Shown in pieces: positions 3,842-54,735 of a stretch of DNA of 64,000 nt. Under the pieces are notes generated by a model. The model worked only from the letters and a program-made list of their open reading frames with translations, made no database searches and had not been told where the DNA came from. Within the stretch, counting starts at the first letter, position 1; every line of letters starts with the position of its first letter. This DNA is from Myxococcus landrumus. GTDB taxonomy: Bacteria > Myxococcota > Myxococcia > Myxococcales > Myxococcaceae. Where the stretch lies: assembly GCF_017301635.1 (NCBI RefSeq), contig NZ_CP071091.1:9044501-9108500 (forward strand). The letters are read 5' to 3'. The position numbers were made by a program, and so were the translations under genes.

Positions 3842-3916
3842 CGCGTCGCGGCAATCCGGCGCCCGACTTGTTATCCTCCCGGGAGGACTCCCACGACGAG
3901 AGGAGCGGACGAGCGC

Positions 3917-4777: not shown

Positions 4778-4832
4778 GGGCTGGGTATAGACTGGGTCGC
4801 CCTTCGAGCTTCTCGCGAAAGGACGTACCGAC

Positions 4833-6209: not shown

Positions 6210-6277
6210 GGACTCCTTCCCCCTTGCTTTTCGCCACGACCTCCGTTTGATGGCGGACGGACAAAGGTGACCGAGTA

Positions 6278-8284: not shown

Positions 8285-8286
8285 CC

Positions 8287-8568
8287 ATGCGCCGTCCCTT
8301 CCGTTTCCTCATTCCCTTCGCGGCCCTGTCCCTGGGCCTGTCCGCGTGCAGCCTGCTCGTCGACTTCGACGAGGAGGGCCAGCCGTGTGACGACAGCAAC
8401 CAGTGCCTCTCCGGCTACGCCTGCAAGGAGGAGAAGTGCGTCGCCGTCGGCACCGCCGGGGGCTCGGACTCCGGCTCGGATGCCGGGAGCGACGCGGGCT
8501 CCGACGCCGGCAGTGACTCGGGCTCGAACAACGCCACCCGCGATGCGGGCCCGGTGGATGGCGGGTAG
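8287..8568 (+). CDS. Small lipoprotein with Gly-Ser-Asp repeats
   Basis: Protein of 93 residues. A lipoprotein signal peptide ends in the lipobox LSAC, giving a mature N-terminal Cys at about residue 19. The middle holds several Cys residues (CDDSNQCLSGYACKEEKC), like the Cys-rich modules seen in many myxobacterial lipoproteins. The tail is a Gly-Ser-Asp-Ala repeat that looks like an unstructured spacer. It starts 2 bases after the preceding PEGA-domain gene stops, so the two are probably co-transcribed. No function can be assigned; a surface or envelope location is inferred from the lipobox. Confidence 0.75.
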   Translation: MRRPFRFLIPFAALSLGLSACSLLVDFDEEGQPCDDSNQCLSGYACKEEKCVAVGTAGGSDSGSDAGSDAGSDAGSDSGSNNATRDAGPVDGG

Positions 8569-8646
8569 CTGACGCGCGGGCCAGGGGCTGCGCCGCCAAG
8601 GGCGGTCATTCCTACAGCCCCAAGGCTCGCGTGGTCGTCGGGCCGC

Positions 8647-8668
8647 GCCGTGTCCTCGGGGACACGGC
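8647..8668. terminator. Perfect 9-bp hairpin with TCGG tetraloop
   Basis: GCCGTGTCC and GGACACGGC flank a TCGG loop, 79 bases after the small lipoprotein stop and 130 bases before ddl. No T-run follows on the + strand. It could end the upstream transcript or shape the ddl leader. Confidence 0.35.
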
Positions 8669-8799
8669 CGCCTGGCCGCCCGTGGTTGTCGCAAACCCTC
8701 GTTTCCACGAGGTCCGCCACCGCGCACGTTGCGTCACCGCCCCCGCGGCCTGGTTGGCATCCGTCGTGCTCTGTCGCGAGCCCAGGAGGCTTCATCGAC

Positions 8800-9780
8800 A
8801 TGGGCAAGCGCGTCGGAGTGCTGATGGGTGGCTGGGGCGAGGAGCGGGAGATTTCGCTCAAGACCGGAGAGGCCGTGGTGGCGGCGCTGGAGTCTCGCGG
8901 CCACCAGGTCACCCGGGTGTTCGCGGGGCCCGGGCTGGACCGGGCGCTGCGCTCCGCCGAGCTGGACGTGGCCTTCATCGCGCTGCATGGTCGCATGGGC
9001 GAGGACGGCCGCGTGCAGGGGCTCCTGGAGCTCTTGGAGCTGCCCTACACGGGCTCGGGCGTGCTGGCGTCGGCGCTGGCGATGAACAAGCCCGTCGCCA
9101 AGAAGCTCTTCCGGTTGCACAACCTGCCCACGCCCCAGGGCTACCGCGTGGGCCGCGACGAGGCGGCGGATGCGCTCACGCTTCACGGCGACCTGGGCTT
9201 CCCGTGCGTGGTGAAGCCCGCGTGCGGGGGCTCGTCGGTGGGGCTGTCCGTCGTGCGCGAGCCGGAGGCGCTGGTGCCCGCGGTGGCCCAGGCCTGCCGC
9301 TTCGGCGGTGAGGCGCTGGTGGAGCGCTTCGTGTCCGGGCGCGAGGTGACGGTGGGCATCCTCGGCGGGAAGGTGCTGGGGAGCTGCGAAGTGGCCACGC
9401 CTCGCGAGAGCTTCGACTTCGACGCCAAGTACAAGGGGGGCTCGCGCTACTTCCTGCCGCCCCGCCTGTCCGTCACGCGCGTGGCCAACGTGGAGGCCCT
9501 GGCGCTCGCGGCGTACCGCGCGCTGGGATGCCGCGGGTATGCCCGCGTGGACCTGCTCTGCTCGGACACCGACAACGACGTGGTGCTGGAGGTCAACACG
9601 CTGCCGGGCTTCACCCCCACCAGCCTCCTGTCGAAAATTGCCGCCCAGGCCGGGCTGGAGTTCCCGGAGCTCGTCGAGCGCATCCTGTCCCTGGCGACCC
9701 GCGACGAGGCGGGTATCCTGGACGCGCCTGTTGTCGCCCCCACTCCCACTGTCCTGGAGCCCCGTCGCGCGGTGAGCTGA
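8800..9780 (+). CDS. ddl: D-alanine--D-alanine ligase
   Basis: ATP-grasp ligase of 326 residues that joins two D-Ala to make the terminal dipeptide of the peptidoglycan precursor. The N-terminal domain begins GVLMGGWGEEREISL, the standard Ddl opening. The ATP-grasp core has the PCVVKPACGGSSVGLSVV loop, and the C-terminal metal site reads VVLEVNTLPGFTPTSLLSK. The ATG at 8800 follows a perfect AGGAGG (8784-8789) with a 10-base spacer; an in-frame extension to 8650 has no ribosome site or family support. It stands alone between the lipoprotein and the glycosyltransferase, not inside a mur cluster. Confidence 0.95.
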   Translation: MGKRVGVLMGGWGEEREISLKTGEAVVAALESRGHQVTRVFAGPGLDRALRSAELDVAFIALHGRMGEDGRVQGLLELLELPYTGSGVLASALAMNKPVAKKLFRLHNLPTPQGYRVGRDEAADALTLHGDLGFPCVVKPACGGSSVGLSVVREPEALVPAVAQACRFGGEALVERFVSGREVTVGILGGKVLGSCEVATPRESFDFDAKYKGGSRYFLPPRLSVTRVANVEALALAAYRALGCRGYARVDLLCSDTDNDVVLEVNTLPGFTPTSLLSKIAAQAGLEFPELVERILSLATRDEAGILDAPVVAPTPTVLEPRRAVS

Positions 9781-9800
9781 CCTCCCAGGTAGTCCTCCCC

Positions 9801-9825
9801 CGGCGCCGTTTCAGCCCCGGCGCCG
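9801..9825. terminator. Candidate terminator hairpin after ddl
   Basis: Two copies of the self-complementary CGGCGCCG (9801-9808 and 9818-9825) are separated by 9 bases, 20 bases after the ddl stop. The stem is 8 bp of pure G/C; no T-run follows. Confidence 0.45.
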
Positions 9826-9906
9826 TCCCCGCAGTGCCCCTGTACGCCAGGGTGACGCGAGGTGTCATAGAGACCCTGAACGGAACGTTCAAATTCGGGG
9901 AATAAT

Positions 9907-9935
9907 TTGACACACCCTTGACGCCTCCCTATTGT
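9907..9935 (+). promoter_or_regulatory. Sigma70-type promoter for the GT2 gene
   Basis: A consensus -35 box TTGACA (9907-9912), a 17-base spacer and a -10 box TATTGT (9930-9935) lie in an AT-rich patch that stands out in this 70% GC window. The palindrome GAACGTTC (9883-9890) ends 16 bases before the -35 box and could be an operator. The predicted transcript start is near 9942. Confidence 0.7.
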
Positions 9936-10109
9936 CCGGCGCCGATCTGTCCCCGAACGTCAAAGTCGTGTCTTTTCGGGTACATAGGAGACGGGGGCTC
10001 AGCGGACCCATGAGGCGGCGGTTCGGTGTGAGACGGGATTTTCCGCAGCCGCCACGCATGGAAGGACCGCGGGCCACGGGGGCCGTGCGGGAGGGGCTGA
10101 GCGTCACCG

Positions 10110-11633
10110 ATGACCACCGTTGAGATCATCTTCCTGGGCGTCTATTTCAGCGTCCTGTGCGTGCTGGCGGTCTACGGCTCGCACAGGTACCGGATGGCGT
10201 TCCTTTACTACCGGCACAAGTTCAAGCTGCCGACGCCCAAGAGCCCTCTGAAGGAGCTTCCTCGCGTCACCATCCAGCTGCCCATCTTCAATGAGATGTA
10301 CGTGGTGGAGCGGCTGGTGGAGTCGGTGTGCCGCATCGACTATCCGCGCGAGCTTCTGGAAATCCAGGTCCTCGACGATTCGACGGACGAGACGTGCGGC
10401 ATCGCGCGTGCGTGCGTGGAGCGTCACCGTCAGAAGGGCCACGACATCGTCTACATCCACCGCGTCAACCGCGAGGGCTTCAAGGCGGGCGCGCTGGAGA
10501 ACGGCCTGAAGACGGCGCGCGGCGAGTACGTCGCGGTGTTCGACGCGGACTTCGTTCCGAGCCCTGACTTCCTGCTGCGCACGGTGCCGTTCTTCTCCGA
10601 CGCGAAGGTGGGCATGGTGCAGGTGCGCTGGGGCCACCTCAATCGTGAGTTCTCCATCCTCACGCAGGCCCAGAGCATCTTCCTGGACGGCCACTTCATC
10701 ATCGAGCACACGGCGCGCAACCGCTCCGGCTGCTTCTTCAACTTCAACGGCACCGCGGGCATCTGGCGCCGCGACACCATCGCCGACGCGGGTGGCTGGC
10801 AGCACGACACGCTGACCGAGGACCTGGACCTGAGCTACCGCGCCCAGCTCAAGGGCTGGCAGTTCGTGTTCCTCCCGGAGGTCATCTCTCCGGCCGAGGT
10901 GCCGGTGGACATGAACGCCTTCAAGAGCCAGCAGCACCGCTGGGCGAAGGGCTCCATCCAGACGGCGAAGAAGCTCCTGCCCACCATCCTCAAGAGCCAC
11001 CTGCCGCTGGCCGTCAAGCGCGAGGCGTTCTTCCACCTCACCAACAACATGGCGTACCTGTTGATGGTGCTCCTGTCGGTGCTGATGCCCATCAGCATGG
11101 TGGTGCGCTTCCAGCACGGCCTGTACGGCACGCTCTTCCTGGACCTGCCCTTCTTCGTTTCCGCGACGGCCAGCGTGTGCTTCTTCTACGTGGCCGCGCA
11201 GCGGGAGCGGGGCGTGACGGGCTGGGAGCGGGTGAAGTACCTGCCGTTCCTGATGAGCCTGGGCATCGGCCTGGCCATCAACAACGCCAAGGCGGTGGCG
11301 GAGGCGCTGCTCAACCAGCAGTCGGGCTTCGCTCGCACGCCGAAGACGGGCGCCGAGGGCAAGAAGGTCAAGGCGGTGAAGAAGACGTACCGCGGCAGCA
11401 AGACGCTGATGCCGGTGGTGGAGCTGCTCTTCGCGGCGTACTTCACCGGGGCGCTGTGGTTCGCCATCGACGCGCGCATCTACACGTCGGTGCCCTTCAT
11501 CGTCCTGTTCCAGGCGGGCTTCCTCTACGTGGGCATCTCCAGCCTGCTGCAGGGGTTCGCTGGCCGCATGAAGATCTCCGACGCGGGGGCCGCGGTGAAC
11601 CCCGCCGACGAGCAGGCCCGTCGCGCGGCCTGA
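10110..11633 (+). CDS. Membrane GT2 glycosyltransferase (cellulose synthase-like)
   Basis: Processive-type family 2 glycosyltransferase of 507 residues. One membrane helix lies at about 5-25. A cytoplasmic GT-A domain then carries the sugar-nucleotide Asp in VLDDSTDET, the DxD-type motif FDADFVPSPD, the acceptor-site TED in LTEDLDLSYRAQ and QQHRWAKG (QxxRW). Four or more helices follow from about residue 305. The motif set matches enzymes that polymerise and extrude beta-linked polysaccharides, including glucomannan-synthase-like (CslA-type) proteins. Product and donor sugar are unknown. The gene stands alone between its own promoter and a strong terminator. No BcsB, PilZ or export partner is adjacent. 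Confidence 0.88.
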   Translation: MTTVEIIFLGVYFSVLCVLAVYGSHRYRMAFLYYRHKFKLPTPKSPLKELPRVTIQLPIFNEMYVVERLVESVCRIDYPRELLEIQVLDDSTDETCGIARACVERHRQKGHDIVYIHRVNREGFKAGALENGLKTARGEYVAVFDADFVPSPDFLLRTVPFFSDAKVGMVQVRWGHLNREFSILTQAQSIFLDGHFIIEHTARNRSGCFFNFNGTAGIWRRDTIADAGGWQHDTLTEDLDLSYRAQLKGWQFVFLPEVISPAEVPVDMNAFKSQQHRWAKGSIQTAKKLLPTILKSHLPLAVKREAFFHLTNNMAYLLMVLLSVLMPISMVVRFQHGLYGTLFLDLPFFVSATASVCFFYVAAQRERGVTGWERVKYLPFLMSLGIGLAINNAKAVAEALLNQQSGFARTPKTGAEGKKVKAVKKTYRGSKTLMPVVELLFAAYFTGALWFAIDARIYTSVPFIVLFQAGFLYVGISSLLQGFAGRMKISDAGAAVNPADEQARRAA

Positions 11634-39709: not shown

Positions 39710-40120
39710 ATGAACACGGGCGAAGCGCTTTACCTCCATCCGGGCGTGAAGGTCCGGCCCTGTGAATGGGGCTACGGTGTCTTCACGGACGAATTCATCA
39801 AGAGCGGCGAACTCATCGAAGAGTGCCGCTACCTCAAGGTGCTGCAGAAGCACACGCGGCACCCTCCACTGGACGACTACGTCTTCCAGATTCGCTGGAG
39901 CGAGCGCGAGCAGCAGCCCGCGGGGGACTGGGTCGCCCTCGTCCTGGGCTACGGCATGCTCTACAACCACGCCAAGGAGCCCAGCGCCGCGTACTACCGC
40001 GCGGTGGACCGGGACCTCTTCACCTTCTACGCCCTGAGGGACATCCACCCCGGCGAGCAGATTTTCATCAGCTACGGCGAGGAGTGGTGGGACTCCCGGG
40101 GCCAGGGCGTGCCTCCCTGA
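39710..40120 (+). CDS. Small SET-domain protein
   Basis: Protein of 136 residues consisting of little more than a SET domain: the start VRPCEWGYGVFTDEFIKSGE, the knot-region YNHAKEPSA (usual NHS) and the catalytic FISYGEEWW, where the Tyr of the second motif is kept. The family methylates lysines; bacterial substrates are mostly unknown. There is no pre- or post-SET cysteine cluster. The start ATG lies after CAGGGAC. It is about 90 bases downstream of the tetR stop on the same strand, but no link to it is evident. Confidence 0.85.
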   Translation: MNTGEALYLHPGVKVRPCEWGYGVFTDEFIKSGELIEECRYLKVLQKHTRHPPLDDYVFQIRWSEREQQPAGDWVALVLGYGMLYNHAKEPSAAYYRAVDRDLFTFYALRDIHPGEQIFISYGEEWWDSRGQGVPP

Positions 40121-42648: not shown

Positions 42649-42676
42649 GCTGCCCGCGGTGTCTTACGCGGGCAGC
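42649..42676. terminator. Perfect 10-bp hairpin between convergent genes, overlapping a stop codon
   Basis: GCTGCCCGCG (42649-42658) and CGCGGGCAGC (42667-42676) with an 8-base loop. It contains the stop codon of the minus-strand sensor kinase and lies 11 bases after the amidohydrolase stop. No T-run. Confidence 0.6.
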
Positions 42677-44031
42677 CTCACCACGAAGGACGTGGACCAG
42701 CCCGGCGCGTCCTCCACGGAGAGCTGGCCTCCGTGGGCCTCGGCCGCGAGCCGGGAGAAGTACAGCCCCAGGCCGTAGCCTCGGCGGGTGTCCAGCTCCC
42801 GGTCTCCCTGCACGTACTTGTCGAAGATGCGCGGGCGCAGCTCGCGGGGAACGGGCGGGCCGTTGTTGCGCACCGCCAGCCAGACCCCCTGCGCGTCCGT
42901 GCCGCTCTCCAGCCGCACCCGTCCTCCCGTGGGCGCGTAGCGCAGCGCATTGGTGGCCAGGTTCTCCACCACGCGGGTGAGCAGGTCCTCGTCCACGGTC
43001 AGCGTGAGCGCGTCCGGCGTCACCACGTCCAGCGTGATCTTCCGGGCGCGGGCCACGCCTTCCAGCGAGCGCCGCACGTCCTCCAGCAAACGGACGACGT
43101 CCAGCGGCGCCATGCGCGGTGTCATCCGGCCCTGCTCGAGCCGGGGCACATCCATCAGGTCGGCAATCATCCGGTCCAGCCGCGCCGTGACGGTCAGTCC
43201 CGTGCGCGCGGACTCATGCATCGGCCCTGGAGGGAGCTCCTGCTCCATCCACCCGAGCGTCATGGTCAGCGCAGACAGGGGTGAGCGCAGGTCATGGATG
43301 AGGAACTGCGTGAGCAGCTCCTTGTCCCGCTGGAGCGCTCGCAGCTCCTCGTTCTTCGCGTGCTCCTCGTCGAGCATGCGGGAGATGGTGCGCCGCGCCT
43401 CTTCGACCTCCTGGGAGCGCCGCGCCTCCAGGGCCCGGTCCACCTCCGCGCGGGTGAGGGCGCCCGCGAGCAGGCGCAACCTCGCGGTGCTGTACTGCTT
43501 CACCGCGGCCACCAGGAAGAGCGTGACGATGGCGATGACCACCGCGCCCCAGCCCACGCCCGCCTCGCGCATCAACGCGCCCTGCGCCACCGACGCGAGC
43601 GCCGCGGTGCCGTAGACGACCACGGGCCTGAGGGTGAGCCCGCTCAGGTTCACCACCAGGGCGAAGAGCCCCAGGCTGAAGCCCGCGACGCCGGCGGGGA
43701 ACGGGGAGATGGGGAGGGCCAGGTGCTGCAGCCCGTAGACGAGCGCCACGTCCACCGGCGACTGCACCACCCCCAGCCACCGCGCCTCCGGGCGATGGCG
43801 CACGGCGAAGAGCACGCCCGCGACGCCGACGTAGGGGGCGAGCAGGGGCGGGTAGGGCGCCCAGTCCTCACCGCCCGACAGCCACAGCGCCGTCGTCACG
43901 AGCAGGAAGATGGCCGCGCCGACCAGGCGCACGGCCGCGCCCGTGCCCAGCACGCTTCGCCGCTGGGCGTCCACCGCCCGTGCCAGCGACTCATCGAAAG
44001 AGGAGTGAGGCCAACCGAGGACGCTGTCCAC
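42664..44031 (-). CDS. Membrane-bound sensor histidine kinase
   Basis: Protein of 455 residues from a GTG. The N-terminal half holds about six membrane helices (residues 33-175) with almost no periplasmic domain, so it may sense the membrane itself. A coiled coil (about 200-240) leads to the DHp domain with His246 (FLIHDLRSPLSAL), and the HATPase has a G-box GYGLGLYFSRLAAEA. No receiver is attached and no response regulator is adjacent, so this is an orphan kinase, common in myxobacteria. Confidence 0.88.
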   Translation of the reverse strand: MDSVLGWPHSSFDESLARAVDAQRRSVLGTGAAVRLVGAAIFLLVTTALWLSGGEDWAPYPPLLAPYVGVAGVLFAVRHRPEARWLGVVQSPVDVALVYGLQHLALPISPFPAGVAGFSLGLFALVVNLSGLTLRPVVVYGTAALASVAQGALMREAGVGWGAVVIAIVTLFLVAAVKQYSTARLRLLAGALTRAEVDRALEARRSQEVEEARRTISRMLDEEHAKNEELRALQRDKELLTQFLIHDLRSPLSALTMTLGWMEQELPPGPMHESARTGLTVTARLDRMIADLMDVPRLEQGRMTPRMAPLDVVRLLEDVRRSLEGVARARKITLDVVTPDALTLTVDEDLLTRVVENLATNALRYAPTGGRVRLESGTDAQGVWLAVRNNGPPVPRELRPRIFDKYVQGDRELDTRRGYGLGLYFSRLAAEAHGGQLSVEDAPGWSTSFVVRLPA

Positions 44032-44281
44032 GCGAGTGCGATTTCCCGCACTTCATGCCCTCCAGGCAAGTCCCTGCTGGGAATCCTGCCCACCGGGGGA
44101 CGCCCCGTGGGGTCTCCCGAGGGGCGCGAGCAGGGGAGCTCGAAGGCACTTGTGGGTGGCTGGCAATCGCCTTAGGTCAGTTCGCGTAGCACTGATCAGC
44201 GGGGCGGATGTGGCTGCTTGCCCGCCCCGGAGTTCGTGTAAGGTGGCTGGGAGTTGGTCTGGACGGAGGTAGACCGCCGAC

Positions 44282-45019
44282 ATGTGGGACAGACTCAAAA
44301 GGGCATTGCGTAGCTTCGCGGGCTTCTTCGTCTCCTCCATCGAGGATCCGGAGCTCATCCTCGAGCAGAACATTCGTGACCTGAACGACCAGGTCCCGAA
44401 GATGAACGAGTCCATCGCCATGGTTCGGGCGAACGTGACGCTGCTCGAGAAGGAGAACGCCAAGTACAAGGATGACGTCCGCGGGCTGACGGCCAAGGTG
44501 AAGGCCGCCATTCAAGCGGGGCGCGACGACCTGGCGGCGCAGTACGCGACGAAGCTCCAGGTGGAGAAGGACGCGCTCGAGCGCAACGAGGCGCAGCTGT
44601 CCACCGCGCGCCTGGCGTACGAGAAGGCGCTGAACGTCAAGAAGGCGTTCATGCGCGAGAAGGACCGCAAGACGGCGGAGGCCATGACGGCCATTCGCGA
44701 CGCGCGGCGCGCCAAGTGGCAGGCCAAGGTGGCCGACACGATGGAGTCCTTCACCGTCGCCGGCATCGACTCGACGCACGACGAGATGCTCCGCAAGGTG
44801 GAGGAGCGCACCGCCGTGAACGAGGCGCGCATGCAGATGGCGCTCGAGTCGGTGGACCACCAGTCCGCGCAGATTGAGGAAGAGGCCGAGAAGATCCAGG
44901 CCAACGAGCTGGTGAAGCAGTTCAAGATGGAGATGGGGCTGATGGACAGCCCCGCCCCGGTGTCGGATGTCAGCGGACAGACGGGGAAGACCATCGGCAA
45001 GAAGGTCGGAGTCGAGTAG
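44282..45019 (+). CDS. pspA: PspA/IM30-family membrane-stress protein
   Basis: Protein of 245 residues, nearly all helix/coiled coil, as in PspA/Vipp1. It starts [16 protein letters not shown], an amphipathic helix expected to bind membranes. PspA-type proteins form ESCRT-III-like polymers that stabilise damaged inner membrane. No PspBC, PspF or sigma54-type promoter was found. The next two genes on the same strand are a solute-binding-like protein and an unknown membrane protein, at spacings of 39 and 35 bases, so the three may form an operon. Confidence 0.9.
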
Positions 45020-45058
45020 CTCCGGCATGATGAAGGGAAGAGACCCGGGAACTGACGG

Positions 45059-46246
45059 ATGAAGCTCCACCGCGGGCCAGGTCTCTTCCTCTTCTTGTTC
45101 CTCTGCGTGTTGGGCGCGGCGTGGGTGTTCGCGTCCCGCAGCGGATATCTGGACACCCTCCAGGCGCGCTTCTTTCCCGCCGTTCGCGAGGCGGTGCGAC
45201 TGTCCCCCGGAGACTTCCCGGCCGGCGTGTCGGCACCCGTGGCGGACGTGGCGTCAGTGCCGCTCAGGCCCGTGCTGGTGGGCTTCACTCCGCGCGGCTC
45301 GGCGGCGGGTCTGCTCGTGGCGGCGGGAGGGGCGACGACGTTGGACAACCCGGCGCTTCCTCCGGGCGCCGCGCAGGGCCTCTTGAAGACGGCCTATGCG
45401 CTGGATGCGCGGGCGGTGCTCTTCGCGCGCGAGGAGGAGCTGCGGCAGGCCCTGTCCATCGGCGCGGAGAACGGCGGCGTGGACATGGCGATGCTGTCGG
45501 TGGACCGGCTGGCGTCGTGGGCGCCGGGCTTGCGGGACGCCGCGCCTCGCACGGTGATGCTGGCCGGCCGCAGTCGCGGGCAGGAGGCGCTCGCGGCGGT
45601 GGGGGTGACGGACCTCGCGGGCCTGAGGGGCAAGCGCGTGGGCATCTATCCCTTCAGCTCCACGCACTACTTCGCCCTGTGGGTGCTGGCGCGGGCGGGG
45701 CTGCGGACGACGGACGTGCGGTGGGTGGAGCTGCCCTCCACGCTGGACGCGGGCCGGGCGCTGCGCGAGGGCCGGGTGGACGCGGTGGTGGGGCTGTGGG
45801 GCGACGTGGAGCTGGCGGCGCGGGACAGGGGAGGGGCGGTGCTCGCGACGACGGCGGACGCGCCGCACCTGGTGGCCACGGTGCTGGTGGCGCGCGGAGA
45901 CTTCGCGGCGCGCTACCCGGACGCGGTGAGGCGTGTGCTGCGCGGGATGCTGGACGCCGGGCAGAGTGTGCTGAAGGACCCGTCGGCGGGGGCTCGGATG
46001 CTCGGCGAGGTGGCGCCGTACCTGGGCGACCCGACGGAGGCCATCCGGAGCGCGCCGCCCGCCACGCTGGCGGACAATCGAGCGTTCTTCGGTCTTTCCG
46101 GCGAGGCGCCAGTCACCTATGACGAGCTCTACCAGAGCGCCGCCGCGCTTTTTCAGAAGCTCAAGCAGGGCCCGCAGGTGCCCCTCGCGGAGGATACGAG
46201 GGACCTGGGAGCGTTGAAGTACGTGTCGGAGGCGCGCGGTCCCTGA
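45059..46246 (+). CDS. Anchored NitT/TauT-type solute-binding-like protein
   Basis: Protein of 395 residues with a single N-terminal membrane helix (about 8-28) and no lipobox. The rest looks like a periplasmic binding protein of the NitT/TauT/SsuA class: [37 protein letters not shown] and [18 protein letters not shown]. No ABC permease or ATPase is nearby, so it is unlikely to serve a normal importer. Linkage to pspA suggests a sensor or chaperone role at the membrane (inference). Confidence 0.78.
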
Positions 46247-46281
46247 CGCGGTGGGCTGGCGCTGGGAAGGGGAGGTCGGAC

Positions 46282-47088
46282 GTGGCGAAGAAGTCGCCGA
46301 ACTACATCAAGGCCGCATTCCTGATGCCCGCCAACCTGGTGGGGCTGGGCACGGCGGCTGCCTCGGCGGTGTTGACGGGTGAGCCGCTGCCCGCCCTGGT
46401 CGCGTTGGGGCTGGAGGGCCTGTACCTGGGCGTCTTCTCCTCGATGCCGCGCTTCCAGCGCGCGGTGCGTTCGCGGGAGCCGACGGACCCGGAGGTGGCT
46501 CGCAAGGCGGTGGACTCGCTCCTGTCCGACCTGGCCCCCTCGCAGCGCGAGCACTACCAGCAGCTCGTGGGGCTCAAGGAGAAGATTCTCGCCAACTACC
46601 GCAAGCTGCCAGGCGGCAAGGTGTTGGAGACGGAGAGCGAGACGCGGCTGGACGCGATGTTGACGTCGTTCCTGCGGCTCATCTCCACGCTGAACCAGTA
46701 TCGCGCGTACCTCAACAGCCCCGACCGAGGGAACCTCGAGAAGGATGTGCGGGAGCTGCAGGAGGACGTGGAGCGCGAGACGAATCCCCGGCTGAAGGAC
46801 GTGAAGCAGAACCGGGTGGACATCCTGCGCAAGCGTCTGGCGCGCTTCGAGCAAGCCAGCGAGAGCCGCGAGCTGGTGAGCCATCAGCTCGCCAGCATCG
46901 AAGACATGATGCGGCTGACGCACGAGCAGTCGATTGCCATCCGGGACCCGGAGGTCGTCAACCGTCAGCTCACCATGCTGAGCGCGGAGGCCGAGGCCAC
47001 CGAGGAGTCCGTGCGGCAGATGGAGCAGTTCCTGGAGTTCACCGAGGAGACGCGCGGCCCGCTGCCGCATGGCTCGCGGGTGCGGTGA
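46282..47088 (+). CDS. Unknown membrane-associated helical protein
   Basis: Protein of 268 residues from a GTG after GGGGAGG. A pair of hydrophobic helices (about 10-55, NLVGLGTAAASAVLTG and LVALGLEGLYLGVF) precedes a long, charged helical part with several coiled-coil stretches (about 60-255). I recognise no family. It is the third gene of a pspA-led group, and its hairpin-plus-coil layout would suit a membrane-bound partner of the PspA polymer. That is inference. Confidence 0.7.
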   Translation: MAKKSPNYIKAAFLMPANLVGLGTAAASAVLTGEPLPALVALGLEGLYLGVFSSMPRFQRAVRSREPTDPEVARKAVDSLLSDLAPSQREHYQQLVGLKEKILANYRKLPGGKVLETESETRLDAMLTSFLRLISTLNQYRAYLNSPDRGNLEKDVRELQEDVERETNPRLKDVKQNRVDILRKRLARFEQASESRELVSHQLASIEDMMRLTHEQSIAIRDPEVVNRQLTMLSAEAEATEESVRQMEQFLEFTEETRGPLPHGSRVR

Positions 47089-47095
47089 GCAGGGG

Positions 47096-47365
47096 TCAGG
47101 GCCGGGGCGGATTCCGCCCGGGTCCTTCCCGCGTGGGCTTGGGGCGCGAGCGGAACGCGTCGAGGCCCCGGGGGCCTGTCTTCGAGAACAGCGTGCCGAC
47201 GAAGAAGACCGCGGCGGCGAGCAAGGGGCCGACGATGGCGCCCACCGGGATGCCCACCACGAGCCCGACGATGCCCGCGACGGGGTGGATGCGCCAGGCA
47301 AGCACCCCGATGATGACGGAGCCCGCGAGGGTGCAGAGCAGCGAGTAGAGCTCGAAGAGTCGCAT
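47096..47365 (-). CDS. Small membrane protein, unknown function
   Basis: Protein of 89 residues with two to three hydrophobic segments (SLLCTLAGSVIIGVLAW, AGIVGLVVGIPVGAIVG, LLAAAVFFVGTL) and a basic, Pro-rich tail (RSRPKPTREGPGRNPPRP). It is convergent with the preceding gene (8 bases). No family recognised. Confidence 0.62.
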   Translation of the reverse strand: MRLFELYSLLCTLAGSVIIGVLAWRIHPVAGIVGLVVGIPVGAIVGPLLAAAVFFVGTLFSKTGPRGLDAFRSRPKPTREGPGRNPPRP

Positions 47366-47564
47366 GGTGGGACGAGCGAGCGTACCGCCTGTTCGAGCCG
47401 CATGCCGCGACCGGCCCCTGGTTGGGCACCTCGTGCGCTTTGAGGCGGAGGCCAGGACGTGGGACGTTGGCTGTCAGTCACCGGGCCTTCCTGTCCAGGT
47501 GGCGGACGGCCGTCATGCCCAGGAATCCATTGACTCTCTGGCCCAGCCGTCCTGTCCTGGTGCC

Positions 47565-49223
47565 ATGTTCCGCCGAGCCTGGTTGCCGACCCTCCTCCTC
47601 CTGCTCGCCATCGCGGGCTGTTCGCGTTGTGGCAAGGACCAGGGCCCCGTCGCCCCGCAGCAGGACGCGAACATCGCGCGCTACCTGCCCCGCGACGCCC
47701 AGGCCTCCATCGTCATCCAGGACCTGGGGGCGCTCGGCGAGAAGCTGGCGCGCTTCCAGAACCTGAAGGTCGCCTCCTTCGCCGCGCAGCTCCAGAGCTT
47801 CTCCTCCGCGGAGGGCTATGTGAACGCGGTGATGCGGCAGGTGGGCGTCGACCTGCGCAGCCGCCAGGCCCTGGAGGCCGCGGGGCTGGCTCCAGAGCGA
47901 GGCGCTGGCGCGGCCTTCCTCGGTGACAACCGCGCCGTCTCCGTCGTGGGCGTCAAGGACGCGGAGAAGCTCGAGGCCACCTTCGCGGGCTTTGCCCGCA
48001 CGCGGCTGGGCGCGTCCGAGAAGAAGCAGGAGAAGGGCGCTGGCGGAAACCTCGTCACCTTCCACCGTCCCGGAGTGCCCGACGCGGCGCTGGGCCTGCT
48101 CTTCATCGACGGCGGGCGGTATGCCCTTCTCGGCGCGGGGCCCTCTGTCGCCGCGCTGCGCCCCCTGGCCAGTCAGCCCGAGGAGAAGTCGCTCGCGAAG
48201 GAGCCCGTGCTGGCCGCGTCCCTCCAGCGGCTGCCTTCGAAGCGGGACTTCCACGTGTACCTCCCAGGCGGCACGGGGCTCTTGCCCGCGGGCACCGTGC
48301 AGGGACTCACCCTCGCGGGACTCGTCGAGCCGCGCGCCATCACCGTCCACGCGGACGCGCCGTGGCCGGACACCCAGGCGTCGCTGGCCGCGCTGGACGT
48401 CGTGAAGGACGCGCCGGACCTGCGCGGGTGGCTGCCGGCGGACAGCTTCCTCGTGGTGCGCTTCCGGGGCGACCCGTCGCAGCTCGACGGCGTGTGGCCC
48501 TACCTCGCGGGCGACTACCTGACGCGTGCCGTGCAGAAGAGTGGCCTGGAGATGAAGGCGGAGGTGCTCGACAACTTCAAGCCGGGCATGGTGCTGGGCC
48601 TGTCGCTGTCGCCCCAGGTGCAACTGGGCACGGGCATGCCCGTGTTGGACCTGCGCCGCACCAACCCCTTCCGCTTCGTCAACCTCGTCGCCCTGTCGGA
48701 CCTGAAGGACGCGGCGAGGACGAGCGCCCTCCTGGAGAAGTTGCCGGAACTCTCCACCCACTTCGGCGCGAAGGTGGAGGGCGCGGACCTGAAGGGCCAG
48801 CGCATCTACCTCACGTCGTACCGGGCGGGGGAGGGGGCCCACTTCGCGCTGGGGCCCAACGGCAAGCTGCTGGTCGCCTCGCCGCGGTCGCAGCTCGAGG
48901 CCACGCTCACCGCGCTCGCGCAGAAGGCCGCGGAGGGGCCGGTGGCCGCCGACTTGAAGGACGTGGGCCAGGACGCGGCCATCAGCGTGGTGCTGGACCT
49001 GCGCCGGCTGGCGGACGCGGTGAAGAACCTTCCCTCCGAGGCCTGGGGTATTGGAGGCTTCGCCATCAAGGCCACCACCGTGCGCTGGCTGGAGGCGACC
49101 GATGACCTGCGCGCGGTGACCTTGGCGGTGTCTCGCAAGGAGCGAGCCCTCCAGGCCGAGGTGTCCCTGCGTCTGACTCCCGCTGCTTCGACTCCCACCA
49201 CGACCCAGCCGGCCACTCCGTGA
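47565..49223 (+). CDS. Large lipoprotein of unknown function, first gene of an ABC operon
   Basis: Protein of 552 residues with signal peptide and lipobox LAIAGC. The mature N-terminus has CSRCGKD. The body appears to be built of two similar halves with repeated FAGFARTRLGASEK- and LVASPRSQLEATLTAL-type segments, a pattern seen in DUF3352-like proteins; family membership is only tentative. The start at 47565 is fixed by the signal peptide. Its GTGA overlap with the following ATPase gene makes co-translation likely, so it may be the extracytoplasmic partner of that ABC system. Confidence 0.72.
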   Translation: MFRRAWLPTLLLLLAIAGCSRCGKDQGPVAPQQDANIARYLPRDAQASIVIQDLGALGEKLARFQNLKVASFAAQLQSFSSAEGYVNAVMRQVGVDLRSRQALEAAGLAPERGAGAAFLGDNRAVSVVGVKDAEKLEATFAGFARTRLGASEKKQEKGAGGNLVTFHRPGVPDAALGLLFIDGGRYALLGAGPSVAALRPLASQPEEKSLAKEPVLAASLQRLPSKRDFHVYLPGGTGLLPAGTVQGLTLAGLVEPRAITVHADAPWPDTQASLAALDVVKDAPDLRGWLPADSFLVVRFRGDPSQLDGVWPYLAGDYLTRAVQKSGLEMKAEVLDNFKPGMVLGLSLSPQVQLGTGMPVLDLRRTNPFRFVNLVALSDLKDAARTSALLEKLPELSTHFGAKVEGADLKGQRIYLTSYRAGEGAHFALGPNGKLLVASPRSQLEATLTALAQKAAEGPVAADLKDVGQDAAISVVLDLRRLADAVKNLPSEAWGIGGFAIKATTVRWLEATDDLRAVTLAVSRKERALQAEVSLRLTPAASTPTTTQPATP

Positions 49224-49921
49224 TTCACGCCCGAGATATCACCAAGGAATATGTGGATGGAGATGGCACCCGGGTTCGGGTGCTCGACGGAATGTCCCTG
49301 GAGGTCGAGGCAGGGGACTTCGTCGCCGTGGTGGGCCCGTCCGGCAGCGGAAAGTCCACGCTGTTGCATCTGCTGGGCGGCCTGGACATCGACTACCGCG
49401 GCGAGGTGAAGGTGGGTGGCGTGACGCTGGGCGGCCTCAAGGACCAGGCCCTGGCGCGCTTCCGCAACACGCACGTGGGCTTCGTCTTCCAGTCCTTCCA
49501 CCTCATCCCCAACCTGTCCGCGCTGGAGAACGTGCTCCTGCCCTCGTACTTCGGGCCGCGCGACGCGCAGGCCGTCAAGCGCGCGGAGGCGCTGCTGGAG
49601 CGCGTGGGCCTGGGGGCGAAGAAGGACCGTGCGCCGGTGCGCCTGTCCGGAGGTGAGCGTCAGCGCGTGGCCATCGCGCGAGCCCTCTACGGCGGGCCTC
49701 GGCTGCTCTTGTGCGACGAGCCCACGGGCAACCTGGACGCGGCCACGGGCGACGGAGTCATCCAGTTGTTCCGTGAGCTTCACCGTGAAGGGCTCACGGT
49801 GCTGGCCGTCACCCACGAGGAGCGGATGAGCGCGGCGGCGCGGCGGGTGCTGCGGCTCAAGGAGGGCAAGCTCGTGGAGGAGCGCGCCTCGGAGCGGGCC
49901 GTCCAGGGAGGTGCTTCGTGA
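49220..49921 (+). CDS. ABC transporter ATPase, LolD/MacB-like
   Basis: ATPase of 233 residues. Walker A GPSGSGKST, Q-loop FVFQSFHLIPNLSALENV, signature LSGGERQRV and Walker B LLLCDEPTGNLD are all intact. The family includes LolD, MacB and FtsE; the permease next to it is of the MacB/LolC type, so a lipoprotein-release or mechanotransmission role is more likely than import. It begins at a GTG overlapping the stop of the lipoprotein gene and ends overlapping the permease start. Confidence 0.92.
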   Translation: MIHARDITKEYVDGDGTRVRVLDGMSLEVEAGDFVAVVGPSGSGKSTLLHLLGGLDIDYRGEVKVGGVTLGGLKDQALARFRNTHVGFVFQSFHLIPNLSALENVLLPSYFGPRDAQAVKRAEALLERVGLGAKKDRAPVRLSGGERQRVAIARALYGGPRLLLCDEPTGNLDAATGDGVIQLFRELHREGLTVLAVTHEERMSAAARRVLRLKEGKLVEERASERAVQGGAS

Positions 49922-51198
49922 GGTGGGATGCGCTGTCGCGACTGGTGCGGCTGAGCCTCGCGCGCGAGCGTCGGGGCGCGTTCTTCTCCGCCTTCGGCGT
50001 GGCGATGGGCGTGGGCACGCTCGTGTTCTTCATCGGCCTGGGCCTCGGAGTGGGCCAGGTCATCCGCGAAAAGATTTTCCCCACCGACGCGCGGTTGGTG
50101 GACGTGGTGCCCTCGTCGGTGTCGCTGGGCTCGCTCCTGGGTGGCGGACAACTGGACGCGGCGGCCGTGGAGCGGCTGCGTGCACTGCCCGGTGTGGAGG
50201 CGGCCTACCGGAAGATGAACGTGCGCGTGCCGGCGGTGACCCGGTACGACGGCGTCTTCTTCGGCACGAAGCTGCGCATGGGCATGGAGGTGCTGGCGTT
50301 GGGCGTGGAGCCCGAGCTGGTGAAGGGCGACGTGCAGCTCGGCGAATTCAAGGACCCGAGTGAAGGCCAGCCGATTCCCGCCGTCGTCTCCACGCGCCTG
50401 CTGGAGCTGTACAACAAGACGTTTGCTCCGGCGCGCAAGCTGCCGCAGCTCTCCGCGGGCATGATTGTGGGCTTCGGCTTCCCGGTGGAGTTCAACCGCT
50501 CCTATGTGTCCGCGTCCGCCTCGGGCCCCAGTCGCTCGATGCAGACCCAAGTCGTGGGCGCATCCGACCGGGCGATGTTCGCGGGCATCACCATCCCGCT
50601 GGAGACGGCGATTCGCATCAACCGCGAGGCGGGAGTGGACGCGGAGAACTACTCCGGCCTCACGCTCGTCGCCACGGACCCCTCGAAGGTCCCCGAGCTG
50701 GTGGACGCGGTGAAGGCGATGGGGCTGGAGATTGACGACCAGGAGCGGCGCATGGCGGAGAACACGGGCGCGGCGGTGGCGCTCACCACGTCCGCGCTGG
50801 CGCTCCTGTCCATCCTCATCTGCGTCCTCGCGGCGGTGAACATCGCCCACGCGCTGTCCGCCTCGGTGCGCGCGCGGGCGCGAGAGATTGGCGTCATGCA
50901 GGCGGTGGGCGCGTCGCGCTCGGACATCCGGGCCATCGTCCTGGCGGAGGCCTCCGTCGTCGGACTGGCTGGTGGCGCCATCGGCACCGCGGTGGCGCTG
51001 GCCGCATCCTTCGGCGTGGACCGCTTCGCCGCGGGCTACCTGCCCAACTTCCCCTTCAAGCCCGAGAGTTTCTTCTCCTTTCCCTGGCCGGTGGTGCTGG
51101 GTGGAGTGGTGCTGGGGCTCCTGGCCGCATTGGCCGGGGCCTACTTCCCCAGTCGCCGCGCCGCCGCCACCGACCCCGCACGGACGCTCGCCGGATGA
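49918..51198 (+). CDS. ABC transporter permease, MacB/LolC/FtsX-like
   Basis: Permease of 426 residues from a GTG overlapping the ATPase stop by 4 bases. One N-terminal helix (about 22-42), a large extracytoplasmic domain (about 45-270) and three C-terminal helices (from about 282), with the loop ASVRARAREIGVMQAVGASR, which is the FtsX/MacB coupling region. LolC/E-type lipoprotein release, MacB-type export and signal transmission all use this layout. Last four bases overlap the next gene. Confidence 0.88.
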   Translation: MRWDALSRLVRLSLARERRGAFFSAFGVAMGVGTLVFFIGLGLGVGQVIREKIFPTDARLVDVVPSSVSLGSLLGGGQLDAAAVERLRALPGVEAAYRKMNVRVPAVTRYDGVFFGTKLRMGMEVLALGVEPELVKGDVQLGEFKDPSEGQPIPAVVSTRLLELYNKTFAPARKLPQLSAGMIVGFGFPVEFNRSYVSASASGPSRSMQTQVVGASDRAMFAGITIPLETAIRINREAGVDAENYSGLTLVATDPSKVPELVDAVKAMGLEIDDQERRMAENTGAAVALTTSALALLSILICVLAAVNIAHALSASVRARAREIGVMQAVGASRSDIRAIVLAEASVVGLAGGAIGTAVALAASFGVDRFAAGYLPNFPFKPESFFSFPWPVVLGGVVLGLLAALAGAYFPSRRAAATDPARTLAG

Positions 51199-51977
51199 CG
51201 CTTCCTTCCCGTAAGACACTGCTGGGCAATGTGCTCAGCCTGGCCGCCATCGCTTGGATTTACGGAGGAGACCTGTCGGACGCCGTGCGGGCGCGCAGCG
51301 CGGAGGTGTCCGCCCTGGTCGAGCTGCCCTCACCCGTGCGCCCCGCGGTGGTGCTGTCGCTGACCGCGCTGGCCGTCGGCGTGGTGATTCTGGGAGGAAT
51401 CGCGCGGGGCAAGGCCGAGGACTTCAAGGGCTACCGCCTGCTTCCCATCCTGCTGGTGGGCGCGCTCTTCGCGGACCTGGTGCTCGCCGAGAGCCGCATC
51501 CCCATCGACTCCACGGACATGGCCTCCATGTCCCTGCAGCGCTTCCAGAAGCTGGCCCAGGAATTGTCCACCCAGACCACCGTCGCGGAGGACCCCCGCG
51601 TGCTCCAGCCCTTGCTGGAGGAGATGGGCCGTCCCCCCTACCTCGTGCGTGGGGAGCCGATGACGGCCTATACCCTCCAGGTCCGGAAGGACTGCGAGGG
51701 CCCTGTCCGCGATGCCCCAGGTGTGCTCCCTGGCACCGTGCTCTACTGTGTCGCCCCCGAGCGCAAGGCCGCATGGGTGACGATGGTGGGCCTCTCGGCC
51801 GAGACGCGCTTCGGGCCTCCGGAGATGCTCGCGGCCCGGGGAGAGGTGCGCTTCCTCCTGGTCCAGCCCGCGATTCCAGACGAGGCGCCACCCGAGCCGG
51901 GCGACGCGTTCCGAGACGCCACGCCCTCGCAGCTCGACGGGGCGACGGACGGAGGGACTTCGAGTCTCCAACCTTGA
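51195..51977 (+). CDS. Unknown membrane protein, last gene of the ABC operon
   Basis: Protein of 260 residues with three N-terminal hydrophobic segments (about 12-27, 49-68, 84-99) and an extracytoplasmic domain of about 150 residues containing two Cys (KDCEGP and LYCVAP) that could be disulfide-linked. No family recognised. The ATGA overlap with the permease places it in the same operon, so it may be an accessory subunit. It ends in an acidic, Ser/Gly tail. Confidence 0.68.
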   Translation: MTLPSRKTLLGNVLSLAAIAWIYGGDLSDAVRARSAEVSALVELPSPVRPAVVLSLTALAVGVVILGGIARGKAEDFKGYRLLPILLVGALFADLVLAESRIPIDSTDMASMSLQRFQKLAQELSTQTTVAEDPRVLQPLLEEMGRPPYLVRGEPMTAYTLQVRKDCEGPVRDAPGVLPGTVLYCVAPERKAAWVTMVGLSAETRFGPPEMLAARGEVRFLLVQPAIPDEAPPEPGDAFRDATPSQLDGATDGGTSSLQP

Positions 51978-52098
51978 GAAAAACAAGCGTGCTACGTCCC
52001 TGTTGCCTGCCTGTCTGGAGGGCGCGTGAGAGGCTGCCGTGTGGTTGACCCTGTGAATGGGTGATCGCTAGGCTCCCCTCGAACGGACCCTTCCCCAC

Positions 52099-54735
52099 GT
52101 GACGACCTCTCAACCGAAGCGGCAGCCCATTCCATTTGGGAAGTACCTCCTTCTGGACCGCATCAACATTGGCGGCATGGCGGAGGTGTGGCGCGGGAAG
52201 CAGTTCGGCGCGAGCGGCTTCGAGCGTCTCGTCGCCATCAAGCGCATCCTGCCGAACATCGCGGAGGACGAAGAGTTCATCTCGATGTTCATCGATGAGG
52301 CGAAGATCAGCGTCCAGCTGAGCCACGCCAACATCGCGCAGATCTACGAGCTGGGGCAGATCACCAGCAGCTACTTCATCTCGATGGAGTACATCCCCGG
52401 CAAGGACATGCGGGCCATCTTCGACCGCTGTCGGAAGAAGGGGGAGCCTGCTCCGGTGCCGCTGGTGGCCTTCTGCATCTCCAAGATGTGCGAGGGCCTG
52501 GACTACGCCCACCGGAAGAAGGACGGGATGGGGCGGGACATGAACATCGTCCACCGCGACATCTCGCCGCAGAACGTCCTCATCTCCTTCGAGGGCGAGG
52601 TCAAGGTCATCGACTTCGGCATCGCCAAGGCCGCGGGCAAGGCGACCAAGACGCAGGCCGGCATCCTCAAGGGCAAGTTCGGCTACATGAGCCCGGAGCA
52701 GATCCGCGGCCTGCCGCTGGACCGGCGCTCGGACGTGTTCGCCATCGGCGTGTGCCTCTACGAGATGCTCACGGGCGAGCGGCTCTTCGTGGGCGACAGC
52801 GACTTCAGCGTGCTGGAGAAGGTGCGCAAGGCGGAGGTTCCGCCGCCCTCCACGTACAACCGGCGCATTCCGGAGGTGCTGGAGAAGATTGTGATGCGCG
52901 CGCTCGCCAAGGACGTGGACGAGCGCTACCAGTACGCCAGCGAGCTGGGCGACGACCTCCAGCGCTTCCTCATTACCAGCGAGACCATCTTCGGCCGCAA
53001 GGACCTCATGCAGTACATGAAGTCCACCTTCGCGGAGGAAGTGGAGCGCGAGAAGCAGCGCCTGTCCGACTACGCCGACATCCGTCCTCCGGATGGAATG
53101 CTCGCGGCGCTGGAGGCCTCCTCGGGCGTGGGCCCGGGGGGACTGTCCGCGCCGCCGCCCGCGTCGTCCTCGCCTTCGCTCGCGCAGGTTCCCGTGGTGC
53201 AGCCGGTGGCCGCGCCGCCCCGAGCCACCGCGGCCATGGGAGTCGTGTCACCTTCTCCCGTGCGACGCTCGCCCACGCTGGCCGCGCTGCCCAAGCTGAC
53301 CGCCGCCACCGCGGCGCCCACGCCGAAGGAAGACGAGGTCATGGCGACGCAGCTCGTCTCCAGCGACCACGTCTTCGACGACAGCCCGGAGCCCACCACG
53401 GACCCCGGCGCCAGCGTCGGGCGCACCATCACTCCGCTGGAGTCGCGCGCCCCGCAGCTCGACGAGGATGAGGAGAACATCACCGGCAAGACGGCCGTCA
53501 TCGCGCCGATCGCGCCGCCCTCCGCGCCCCGGTTGTCACACGCCAACATCCCCGTGGTGACGGCGTCCGCTCCGCAGTCGTCCCGCCCGTCGGTGACGCT
53601 GCCCACGGTGATTCCCTCGGAGGTCGCGGCCTCCGCGCCCGGCCCTCGAGGCAGCCGTGGGGCGGGAGATGGGCTTCCCCGTATCGCTCGGGACGTGCCC
53701 CCGCCGGATGTGTCGCAGGGCATCTCCCGCGCGGCGCTGCCTCCGGATGTGTCGCAGGGCATCTCCCGCGCGGCGCTGGCGGAAGGACTGCAAGGCGGGC
53801 CTCGTTCCACGGGCTCTCCGCCCATGCTGGGCGCGGGGACTCCGTCGCGTCCGCCTCGTCCCGTCCCGCAGCCTCGGCAGGAGGAAGAGGACTTCGAGGA
53901 GCGGCCCACGGCGTCCGTGCCCGCGCTGAACCAGCGGGGCCTGGACAAGCGGGTGCTGTACGCGGTGGTCGGCGTGCTCGCGCTCGTCGTGCTCTCCGTC
54001 GTCGGATGGGTCGTGACGCGTCCTGGTGTGGGCTACGTCATGCTGGACCTGCAGCGCGTGCCGCAGGAGGTGCGCGGCCGGGTTCAGGTGATGCTGGACA
54101 CCCAGCCCGTCGTGATTGAGGGCGGTGGCCCTACGTTGCTTCGCGAGGTGCAGGCCGGGCCGGTGATGGTGACGGTGAGCGCGGAGGGCTACAAGACCTT
54201 CACGCGGACGCTCCAGGTCAACAGCGGCAAGGAAGTCTCGCCGGTGGAAGTCACGCTGGAGAGCCTGGTGCGCACCGCTTCGCTGGTGCTCGTCACGCAT
54301 CCGTCGGACGCGCAGGTGAAGGTGGACGGCAAGGTGGTGCGGGAGCAGGGCCGCTCGGATGCCTTCATCAAGGGCGTGGTGGTCTCCAGCCAGGAGTGGG
54401 TGGTGGAGGTCAGCGCGCCACAGCACAAGCCCATGTCCAAGCGCGTGCCGGTGTCGGGTGAGGCGCCGGCCGAGGTGAACGTGAAGCTGGAGCCTCTGGT
54501 GACGAAGGTCTCGGTGAAGGTCGAGTCCCGTCCGGAAGGCGCCGTCATCTTCGCGAATGGCGAGGAGCTGGGCGAGGCGCCTCAGACGGTGCTCGTGTCC
54601 TCGAGCGTGCGGCGGCTGACCTTGAAGCTCAAGTGCCACAACGACGCGGAGGTGGAGGTCCCGGCTCCCGCGGCTGGGGAATCCATGGTCACCGTGCCGA
54701 CTGTTTCGCTCAAACGGCAGCCTCGCTGCCGCTAG
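52099..54735 (+). CDS. Transmembrane Ser/Thr protein kinase with PEGA-like C-terminal repeats
   Basis: Protein of 878 residues from a GTG. The eukaryotic-type kinase domain (about 14-285) has Lys48, Glu67, HRDISPQN with Asp154 and Asn159, DFG at 172-174 and GYMSPEQIRG in the activation segment: all catalytic residues are present. A disordered Pro/Ser/Ala region contains a 13-residue tandem repeat. One membrane helix (about 618-640) is followed by extracytoplasmic PEGA-like beta repeats to the C-terminus. Single-pass kinases with outside PEGA domains are common in myxobacteria. The ligand and substrate are unknown. Confidence 0.93.
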   Translation: MTTSQPKRQPIPFGKYLLLDRINIGGMAEVWRGKQFGASGFERLVAIKRILPNIAEDEEFISMFIDEAKISVQLSHANIAQIYELGQITSSYFISMEYIPGKDMRAIFDRCRKKGEPAPVPLVAFCISKMCEGLDYAHRKKDGMGRDMNIVHRDISPQNVLISFEGEVKVIDFGIAKAAGKATKTQAGILKGKFGYMSPEQIRGLPLDRRSDVFAIGVCLYEMLTGERLFVGDSDFSVLEKVRKAEVPPPSTYNRRIPEVLEKIVMRALAKDVDERYQYASELGDDLQRFLITSETIFGRKDLMQYMKSTFAEEVEREKQRLSDYADIRPPDGMLAALEASSGVGPGGLSAPPPASSSPSLAQVPVVQPVAAPPRATAAMGVVSPSPVRRSPTLAALPKLTAATAAPTPKEDEVMATQLVSSDHVFDDSPEPTTDPGASVGRTITPLESRAPQLDEDEENITGKTAVIAPIAPPSAPRLSHANIPVVTASAPQSSRPSVTLPTVIPSEVAASAPGPRGSRGAGDGLPRIARDVPPPDVSQGISRAALPPDVSQGISRAALAEGLQGGPRSTGSPPMLGAGTPSRPPRPVPQPRQEEEDFEERPTASVPALNQRGLDKRVLYAVVGVLALVVLSVVGWVVTRPGVGYVMLDLQRVPQEVRGRVQVMLDTQPVVIEGGGPTLLREVQAGPVMVTVSAEGYKTFTRTLQVNSGKEVSPVEVTLESLVRTASLVLVTHPSDAQVKVDGKVVREQGRSDAFIKGVVVSSQEWVVEVSAPQHKPMSKRVPVSGEAPAEVNVKLEPLVTKVSVKVESRPEGAVIFANGEELGEAPQTVLVSSSVRRLTLKLKCHNDAEVEVPAPAAGESMVTVPTVSLKRQPRCR
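53704..53781 (+). repeat. Two tandem 39-bp units in the Ser/Thr kinase gene
   Basis: Two 39-base in-frame units encoding DVSQGISRAAL plus flanking residues, starting at 53704 and 53743. The first 36 bases of the two copies are identical, pointing to recent duplication in the disordered linker. Confidence 0.85.

Follow-up and report, generated by a model that had tools for sequence, protein, structure and literature searches.

A conserved PspA operon of myxobacteria with a membrane-anchored solute-binding protein and a helical hairpin protein, possibly a reduced variant of PspA-transporter operons

We analyzed a 64,000-nt stretch of Myxococcus landrumus DNA (the window), taken from a single-contig genome of 10.37 Mb, in which a PspA/IM30 gene is followed by genes for a solute-binding protein (SBP) and for a helical protein that we call p3 (Table 1). 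An earlier interpretation made from the nucleotide sequence alone (the sequence-only reading) had placed these three ORFs on the plus strand with 39 nt between pspA and the SBP gene and 35 nt between the SBP gene and p3, and both the coordinates and the gaps were borne out exactly. Upstream of pspA, a divergent gene (42664-44031, minus strand) encodes a membrane histidine kinase (HATPase_c, E 2.6e-22). Downstream of p3 lies a second set of co-directional genes, left out of the sequence-only reading and encoding the lipoprotein lipoR, a LolD-like ATPase, an FtsX-domain permease and a membrane protein, each of which overlaps the next by 4 nt.

Table 1. Genes and candidate control elements of the pspA locus, in window coordinates
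Feature	Coordinates	Strand	Evidence or remark
PspA/IM30 family protein, 245 aa	44282..45019	+	PF04012, E 2.6e-20
NMT1/SsuA-like solute-binding protein (SBP), inner-membrane-anchored, 395 aa, without OmpA domain	45059..46246	+	PF09084, E 2.2e-10
p3, helical hairpin (about residues 16-54) plus helical domain (56-257), 268 aa	46282..47088	+	AF2 model
lipoR, lipoprotein, motif AGCSRC, distantly DUF3352-like	47565..49223	+	
LolD/YbbA-like ABC ATPase	49220..49921	+	ABC_tran, E 4.6e-32
FtsX-domain (type VII ABC) permease	49918..51198	+	PF02687, E 6.1e-18
Membrane protein without Pfam family, after the FtsX gene	51195..51977	+	4-nt overlap with the FtsX gene
Candidate ECF-type promoter for the pspA operon, bipartite (GGCAAT-N17-CGTAG)	44162..44189	+	
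TCGTGTAAGGT block, candidate -10 region of a second promoter	44234..44244	+	48 nt 5′ of the pspA start

The proposal that the three genes form one conserved unit was examined by comparing the coordinates of PspA, SBP and p3 matches across 145 genomes of the order. Ninety genomes carry all three; in 88 of these the genes share a strand in the order PspA-SBP-p3 and are separated by less than 400 nt, almost always by less than 140 nt; the exceptions are a looser cluster (G139) and a genome with p3 located 13 kb away (G137). Since 88 of 90 genomes keep this tight, co-directional order, we rejected chance adjacency, and the proposed unit is supported. The SBP was found in 94 of the 145 genomes, representing 25 of 46 genera, and p3 in 112 of the 145 by a single-sequence search. 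A family profile search across 195 genomes of the phylum detected p3 in 130. The trio accordingly extends beyond close relatives to many genera of the order, and p3 is distributed phylum-wide. Named records matching the window SBP come from Myxococcus, which are the most similar, and from Pyxidicoccus, Corallococcus, Citreicoccus, Hyalangium and Archangium, the last being the genus to which the AKJ accession series presumably belongs; one further record is labelled Comamonas.

The window PspA matches PF04012 over residues 2-207 of its 245, above the cut-off of the model, and it is the sole match to its own sequence in the genome at E≤1e-3. PspA is the core protein shared with the classical Psp response of E. 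coli (pspF-pspABC), whereas PspB, PspC and a sigma-54 signature are missing from the window locus. No PspB or PspC was detected by Pfam among the flanking genes scanned, and the 18 aligned pspA upstream regions contain no sigma-54-like site, in line with what the sequence-only reading had stated for the locus; control of the operon by sigma-54 was rejected on the latter ground. The single PspC match of the genome is found at 8256199, about 0.83 Mb from the trio (9088782). It belongs to a short protein (8256199-8256369) with an N-terminal CxxC zinc-ribbon-like stretch.

We found no sigma-70 consensus in 43900-52100. A bipartite element, GGCAAT-N17-CGTAG, which the sequence-only reading had likewise missed, is located about 120 nt upstream of the pspA start, and its spacer sequence varies freely. 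It occurs in 30 of 59 distinct pspA upstream regions, the reversed control pattern in 0, and three exact copies exist in the 10.4 Mb genome. No regulon emerged clearly from the other two copies: for one of them, no gene start is called a short distance downstream on the same strand, and the remaining one precedes a short ORF after a DnaK-like gene. The M. xanthus group has no exact copy of the element. A further block, TCGTGTAAGGT, is conserved in the alignment of the 18 upstream regions and is a candidate for the -10 region of a second promoter. The form of the bipartite element resembles the promoters of ECF sigma factors, and the pspA operon may accordingly be under ECF-type control. A parallel is found in Bacillus subtilis, whose pspA-ydjGHI operon depends on the ECF factor sigma-W (PMC3498285), but the partner genes of pspA differ between the two operons.

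The SBP matches NMT1 (Table 1) and NMT1_2 (PF13379, E 1.8e-07) above the Pfam cut-offs and SsuA_fam of NCBIfam (1.6e-18) under the cut-off of that model, and the family profile matches the structure 6ssy (E 1.9e-17). The only domain matches of the protein are of the NMT1 kind. Its N-terminus carries one hydrophobic segment (residues 8-26) preceded by basic residues, and no lipobox was recognized by eye, so the description of the protein as membrane-anchored was right. Neither a permease nor an ATPase of the NitT/TauT type is encoded between or adjoining the trio genes, which supports the view of a binding fold without its own transporter. The broader statement that there is no ABC transporter holds for the NitT/TauT type only, because the trio is usually linked to the downstream module, in which a LolD-like ATPase and an FtsX-domain permease are encoded 2.1 kb downstream on the same strand. 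Compared with SBPs of the TauA/SsuA type, to which it is homologous in sequence across the binding domain, the window protein differs in its permanent N-terminal membrane anchor, the lack of a cognate transporter and altered conserved residues.

No Pfam or NCBIfam match was obtained for the window p3. Its AlphaFold model (pLDDT 87, pTM 0.70) has two parts, a short helical hairpin and, after it, a helical domain, and a nearly invariant Glu45 is located in helix 2. The sequence-only reading had seen two helices and a long coiled coil as a possible anchor. The architecture stands, as a probable membrane hairpin plus cytosolic helices, and anchoring stays at the level of a possible function because the two helices of the window protein have only moderate hydrophobicity, with no hydropathy mean above 1.6 over 19 residues. 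Several assignments of p3 were tried and gained no support from sequence. XpaC/TelA was dropped since Pfam gave no such match, and homology to PspA received a probability of 0.7% in a profile-profile comparison. A relationship to Snf7 is unsupported by sequence: PF03357 matched 1 of 26 family members (E 0.0098), and a phylum-wide Snf7 search returned nothing over the cut-off and no match at the p3 coordinates compared. By fold, the first Foldseek row for the p3 model is the archaeal ESCRT-III protein CdvB2, albeit at E 0.54. The VIA listing reaches Z of 11.6 to mixed helical bundles including BAR-like ones; as such values are common among helical bundles, we make no BAR claim.

Relatives of p3 are also encoded in a second kind of operon (L040 and others), together with an SBP-OmpA fusion, a TauC-like permease and a TauB-like ATPase. 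The window p3 and the transporter-operon proteins form one profile family (E 8.9e-50 in G149 and 2.5e-49 in G192). The OmpA domain of the L040 SBP paralogue (E 6.1e-17) should tie this type of binding protein to peptidoglycan. This paralogous operon (L040:3077-7821; also L052-L058 and L070) opens with a gene for a 160 aa coiled coil before NMT1-OmpA. The trio and the transporter-linked operon can coexist in one genome, as in G134 (L039 and L040). In more distant families, PspA/IM30 stands first in the transporter operon and the gene order runs on to an AAA+ ATPase, which follows p3 in L098, L107 and L108; no AAA+ ATPase was present among the genes scanned beside the window trio. The L098 locus (2213-10215) encodes PspA, NMT1-OmpA, permease, ATPase, p3, AAA+ ATPase, TerB and a coiled coil, and links PspA to a TerB-type protein.

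We compared the conserved residues of SBPs with and without a linked transporter. Eight aligned transporter-linked SBPs are invariant at N77, W79, A80, G81, W145, D170, W171 and W246 (window numbering). Ten trio SBPs instead have invariant P78-R79-G80 and R171, alanine or another residue at position 145, and usually leucine at 246. The N-lobe loop N-x-W-A-G of the transporter-linked proteins corresponds to P-R-G in the trio proteins and the segment D-W-S-x-G to x-R-S-x-G, and both W145 and W246 are lost. The mean identity among trio SBPs is 64%, which argues that the protein is constrained rather than decaying. The two new invariant arginines suggest a different ligand, perhaps an anionic one; the putative cleft residues were placed by alignment to TauA/SsuA only. 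TauA contacts its ligand through Gln30 in the first lobe and Thr132 (PMC6906117). By our own placing, Thr132 falls in the segment STTHY, which aligns with SSTHY of the window SBP and is not retained in distant trio members.

These residues also bear on the idea that the SBP still serves transport by passing its ligand to a NitT/TauT permease from another locus, its adjacency to PspA reflecting shared regulation. Two other loci of the genome, near 2.785 and 6.888 Mb, contain TauC-like permease matches and NMT1 proteins and could in principle supply such a permease, but each has its own NMT1 match close by. The trio SBP stands beside a TauC-like permease at none of the loci looked at, and the residues conserved in transporter-linked SBPs are changed in it, which leaves a transport role very unlikely.

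An operon of the transporter-linked kind has been described, comprising PspA, 'Snf7 homologs with a TM segment', an AAA+ ATPase, an ABC ATPase, a permease and PBPB-OmpA, with OGG56892.1 as an example, and the occurrence of the PspA-transporter operon outside the phylum is taken from the same account (Ravi et al., 2024; PMC11237479). That study also lists a PspA with a 'Snf7' neighbour in Deltaproteobacteria (AKJ06548.1), whose neighbourhood probably corresponds to the myxobacterial locus studied here or to one closely similar, and p3 would correspond to the 'Snf7 with TM' of that study. The published transporter operon and the window operon have in common that PspA is encoded together with a binding protein and a coiled-coil protein bound to the membrane. 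The window operon, by contrast, lacks the NitT/TauT permease and ATPase, the OmpA domain and the AAA+ gene; its SBP has changed conserved residues, and the ABC machine downstream of it is of another kind. By the terms searched, the main text of Ravi et al., 2024 mentions neither NMT1, myxobacteria, the PspA-FtsX module nor a mechanism. The sequence-only reading did not know the trio as a described system, which is true in part: the trio is not wholly undescribed because the wider association of PspA with a TM coiled coil, an ABC transporter and PBP-OmpA had been reported in that study. The operon is real, conserved and previously only partly described, and is a variant of the reported PspA-transporter operons.

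The relationship between the two operon kinds was addressed by phylogeny. In a midpoint-rooted tree of p3, the transporter-linked proteins fall into two deep groups and nearly all of the PspA-SBP-p3 type into a third. A tree of the SBP with an outgroup had long branches and no reliable root and was left unused. Given this grouping and the wide occurrence of the transporter type, we favour a history in which the window lineage lost the transporter; the window trio would then be a reduced derivative of a phylum-wide PspA-transporter operon; this derivation by loss draws mainly on the breadth of distribution, the p3 tree being rooted by midpoint. Between the window PspA and the PspA proteins of the transporter operons, however, identity is only 19-23%. 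Assembly, as opposed to reduction in place, is therefore also a possible origin of the operon, and copies of the SBP and p3 genes may have come to lie beside a different PspA gene.

The downstream module usually accompanies the trio. In the window, p3 and lipoR are separated by 476 nt, and this interval holds a small opposite-strand ORF (47096-47365, minus strand) for a strongly hydrophobic protein of 89 aa. The ORF looks inserted or lineage-specific, because p3 and lipoR are only about 110-180 nt apart in M. xanthus-type genomes. Of 100 genomes compared, 63 have lipoR no more than 300 nt from p3 and 95 have it within 5 kb; the distance is 1-5 kb in several genera and >5 kb in G084. Six genomes (G087, G122, G123 and G125-G127) have the SBP and p3 without a detectable lipoR, so this ABC partner is not obligatory. 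DUF3352 matches 2 of 18 lipoR family members (best E 3e-08) and not the window copy, whose fold resembles that of TP0453, a lipoprotein of Treponema (Foldseek E 9.3e-05; target-based TM-score 0.46). The ATPase scored 228 of 308 bits against LolD, 209 of 966 against MacB and 207 of 336 against YbbA, all under the cut-off. Homologues of the last membrane protein are encoded beside FtsX in L037, L043, L049, L050, L059, L071 and L095. A LolD-like ATPase, an FtsX-domain permease and a lipoprotein are likewise found in type VII ABC systems (LolCDE, MacB, YbbAP); the window module differs from these in its one permease gene, its DUF3352-like lipoprotein, its linkage to PspA and its sub-equivalog scores.

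Shortened forms of the locus indicate which part of p3 is retained. In one family of the order (f2; L066 and L111-L113), the SBP is absent and p3 is reduced to the hairpin between PspA and lipoR-LolD-FtsX; the hairpin-only protein of L066 has 66 aa and directly follows PspA. This arrangement suggests that the hairpin is the segment connected with PspA, the ABC machine or both. In L095, which belongs to a different family of the class, PspA-p3-lipoR-LolD-FtsX is found without the SBP. A distinct p3 clade is encoded directly 5′ of lipoR-LolD with no adjoining PspA in L059 (6002-10394), where FtsX is present too, and in L063 (5766-9097).

We interpret the window locus as a myxobacterial PspA envelope-maintenance operon of reduced form, in which the SBP would be a receptor, p3 a dock and the adjacent ABC machine a partner, and we hold this interpretation at slightly less than even confidence. 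The ancestral operon would have paired PspA with a NitT/TauT-type ABC importer. The importer permease and ATPase, the OmpA domain of the SBP and the AAA+ ATPase would have been lost in the window lineage. The retained SBP, tethered to the membrane, would most likely serve in the periplasm as the receptor of a small ligand whose import has ceased, and might signal through its membrane helix and the p3 hairpin to the cytosolic helices of p3. Through a presumed p3-PspA contact, these helices would dock PspA at the inner membrane and adjust how it assembles, and the lipoprotein/LolD/FtsX machine would probably be the envelope-side partner, handling lipids or lipoproteins. The stricter version, a ligand-gated Psp system in which the SBP without a transporter is a dedicated receptor coupling a periplasmic ligand to assembly of PspA, an ESCRT-III-type membrane-remodelling protein, via the p3 hairpin as adaptor, is tentative and somewhat unlikely. 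For the receptor-and-dock interpretation, the strongest structural hint is the reduction of p3 to its hairpin between the PspA and ABC genes.

The same arrangement is open to the main rival of PspA docking, namely that the p3 hairpin serves the ABC machine rather than PspA. The SBP and p3 would then be mainly subunits or substrate-capture factors of the LolD/FtsX machine, PspA would only stabilize the membrane there, and no signal would pass from a ligand to PspA. The proximity of p3 to lipoR in most genomes speaks for this, as do the persistence of PspA-hairpin-lipoR-LolD-FtsX without the SBP and the p3 clade that directly precedes lipoR-LolD away from PspA. However, lipoR is undetectable in some trio genomes and remote from p3 in others, and p3 is found with a NitT/TauT-type ABC transporter as well; we consider this alternative unlikely.

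PspA, the SBP and p3 might also be independently acting envelope proteins that share a promoter, their order being kept by operon inertia. Shared regulation alone can hold operon genes together, and some relatives retain PspA and p3 although no SBP was detected in them. On the other hand, the three recur jointly in two operon types across families of the phylum, and p3 shrinks to a hairpin yet stays beside PspA. Because two operon types share these proteins and the hairpin-only p3 keeps its adjacency to PspA, contact among them is suggested, and independent action appears decidedly unlikely.

The operon bears on the question of how PspA senses the state of the envelope outside enterobacteria. 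Should the SBP prove to be a receptor, its ligand would provide a PspA system with a defined chemical input, for which we know of no precedent. The regulation of PspA homologues without an associated AAA ATPase was described as unknown by Ravi et al., 2024 (PMC11237479). A natural comparison is offered by the same gene family with a transporter and an AAA+ ATPase, with neither, and with the membrane hairpin only, and it is available in organisms whose genetics is established, Myxococcus xanthus among them.

Two further observations were made elsewhere in the window. A second pair of LolD-like ATPase and FtsX-like permease is encoded at 1129-2717 on the plus strand; against the profiles made for the downstream module, the two gave E 6e-71 and 1.1e-05. 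The ORF at 39710-40120, also on the plus strand, encodes a bacterial SET-domain-like protein as judged by eye (GYGVF..., NH..., GEQIFISYG).
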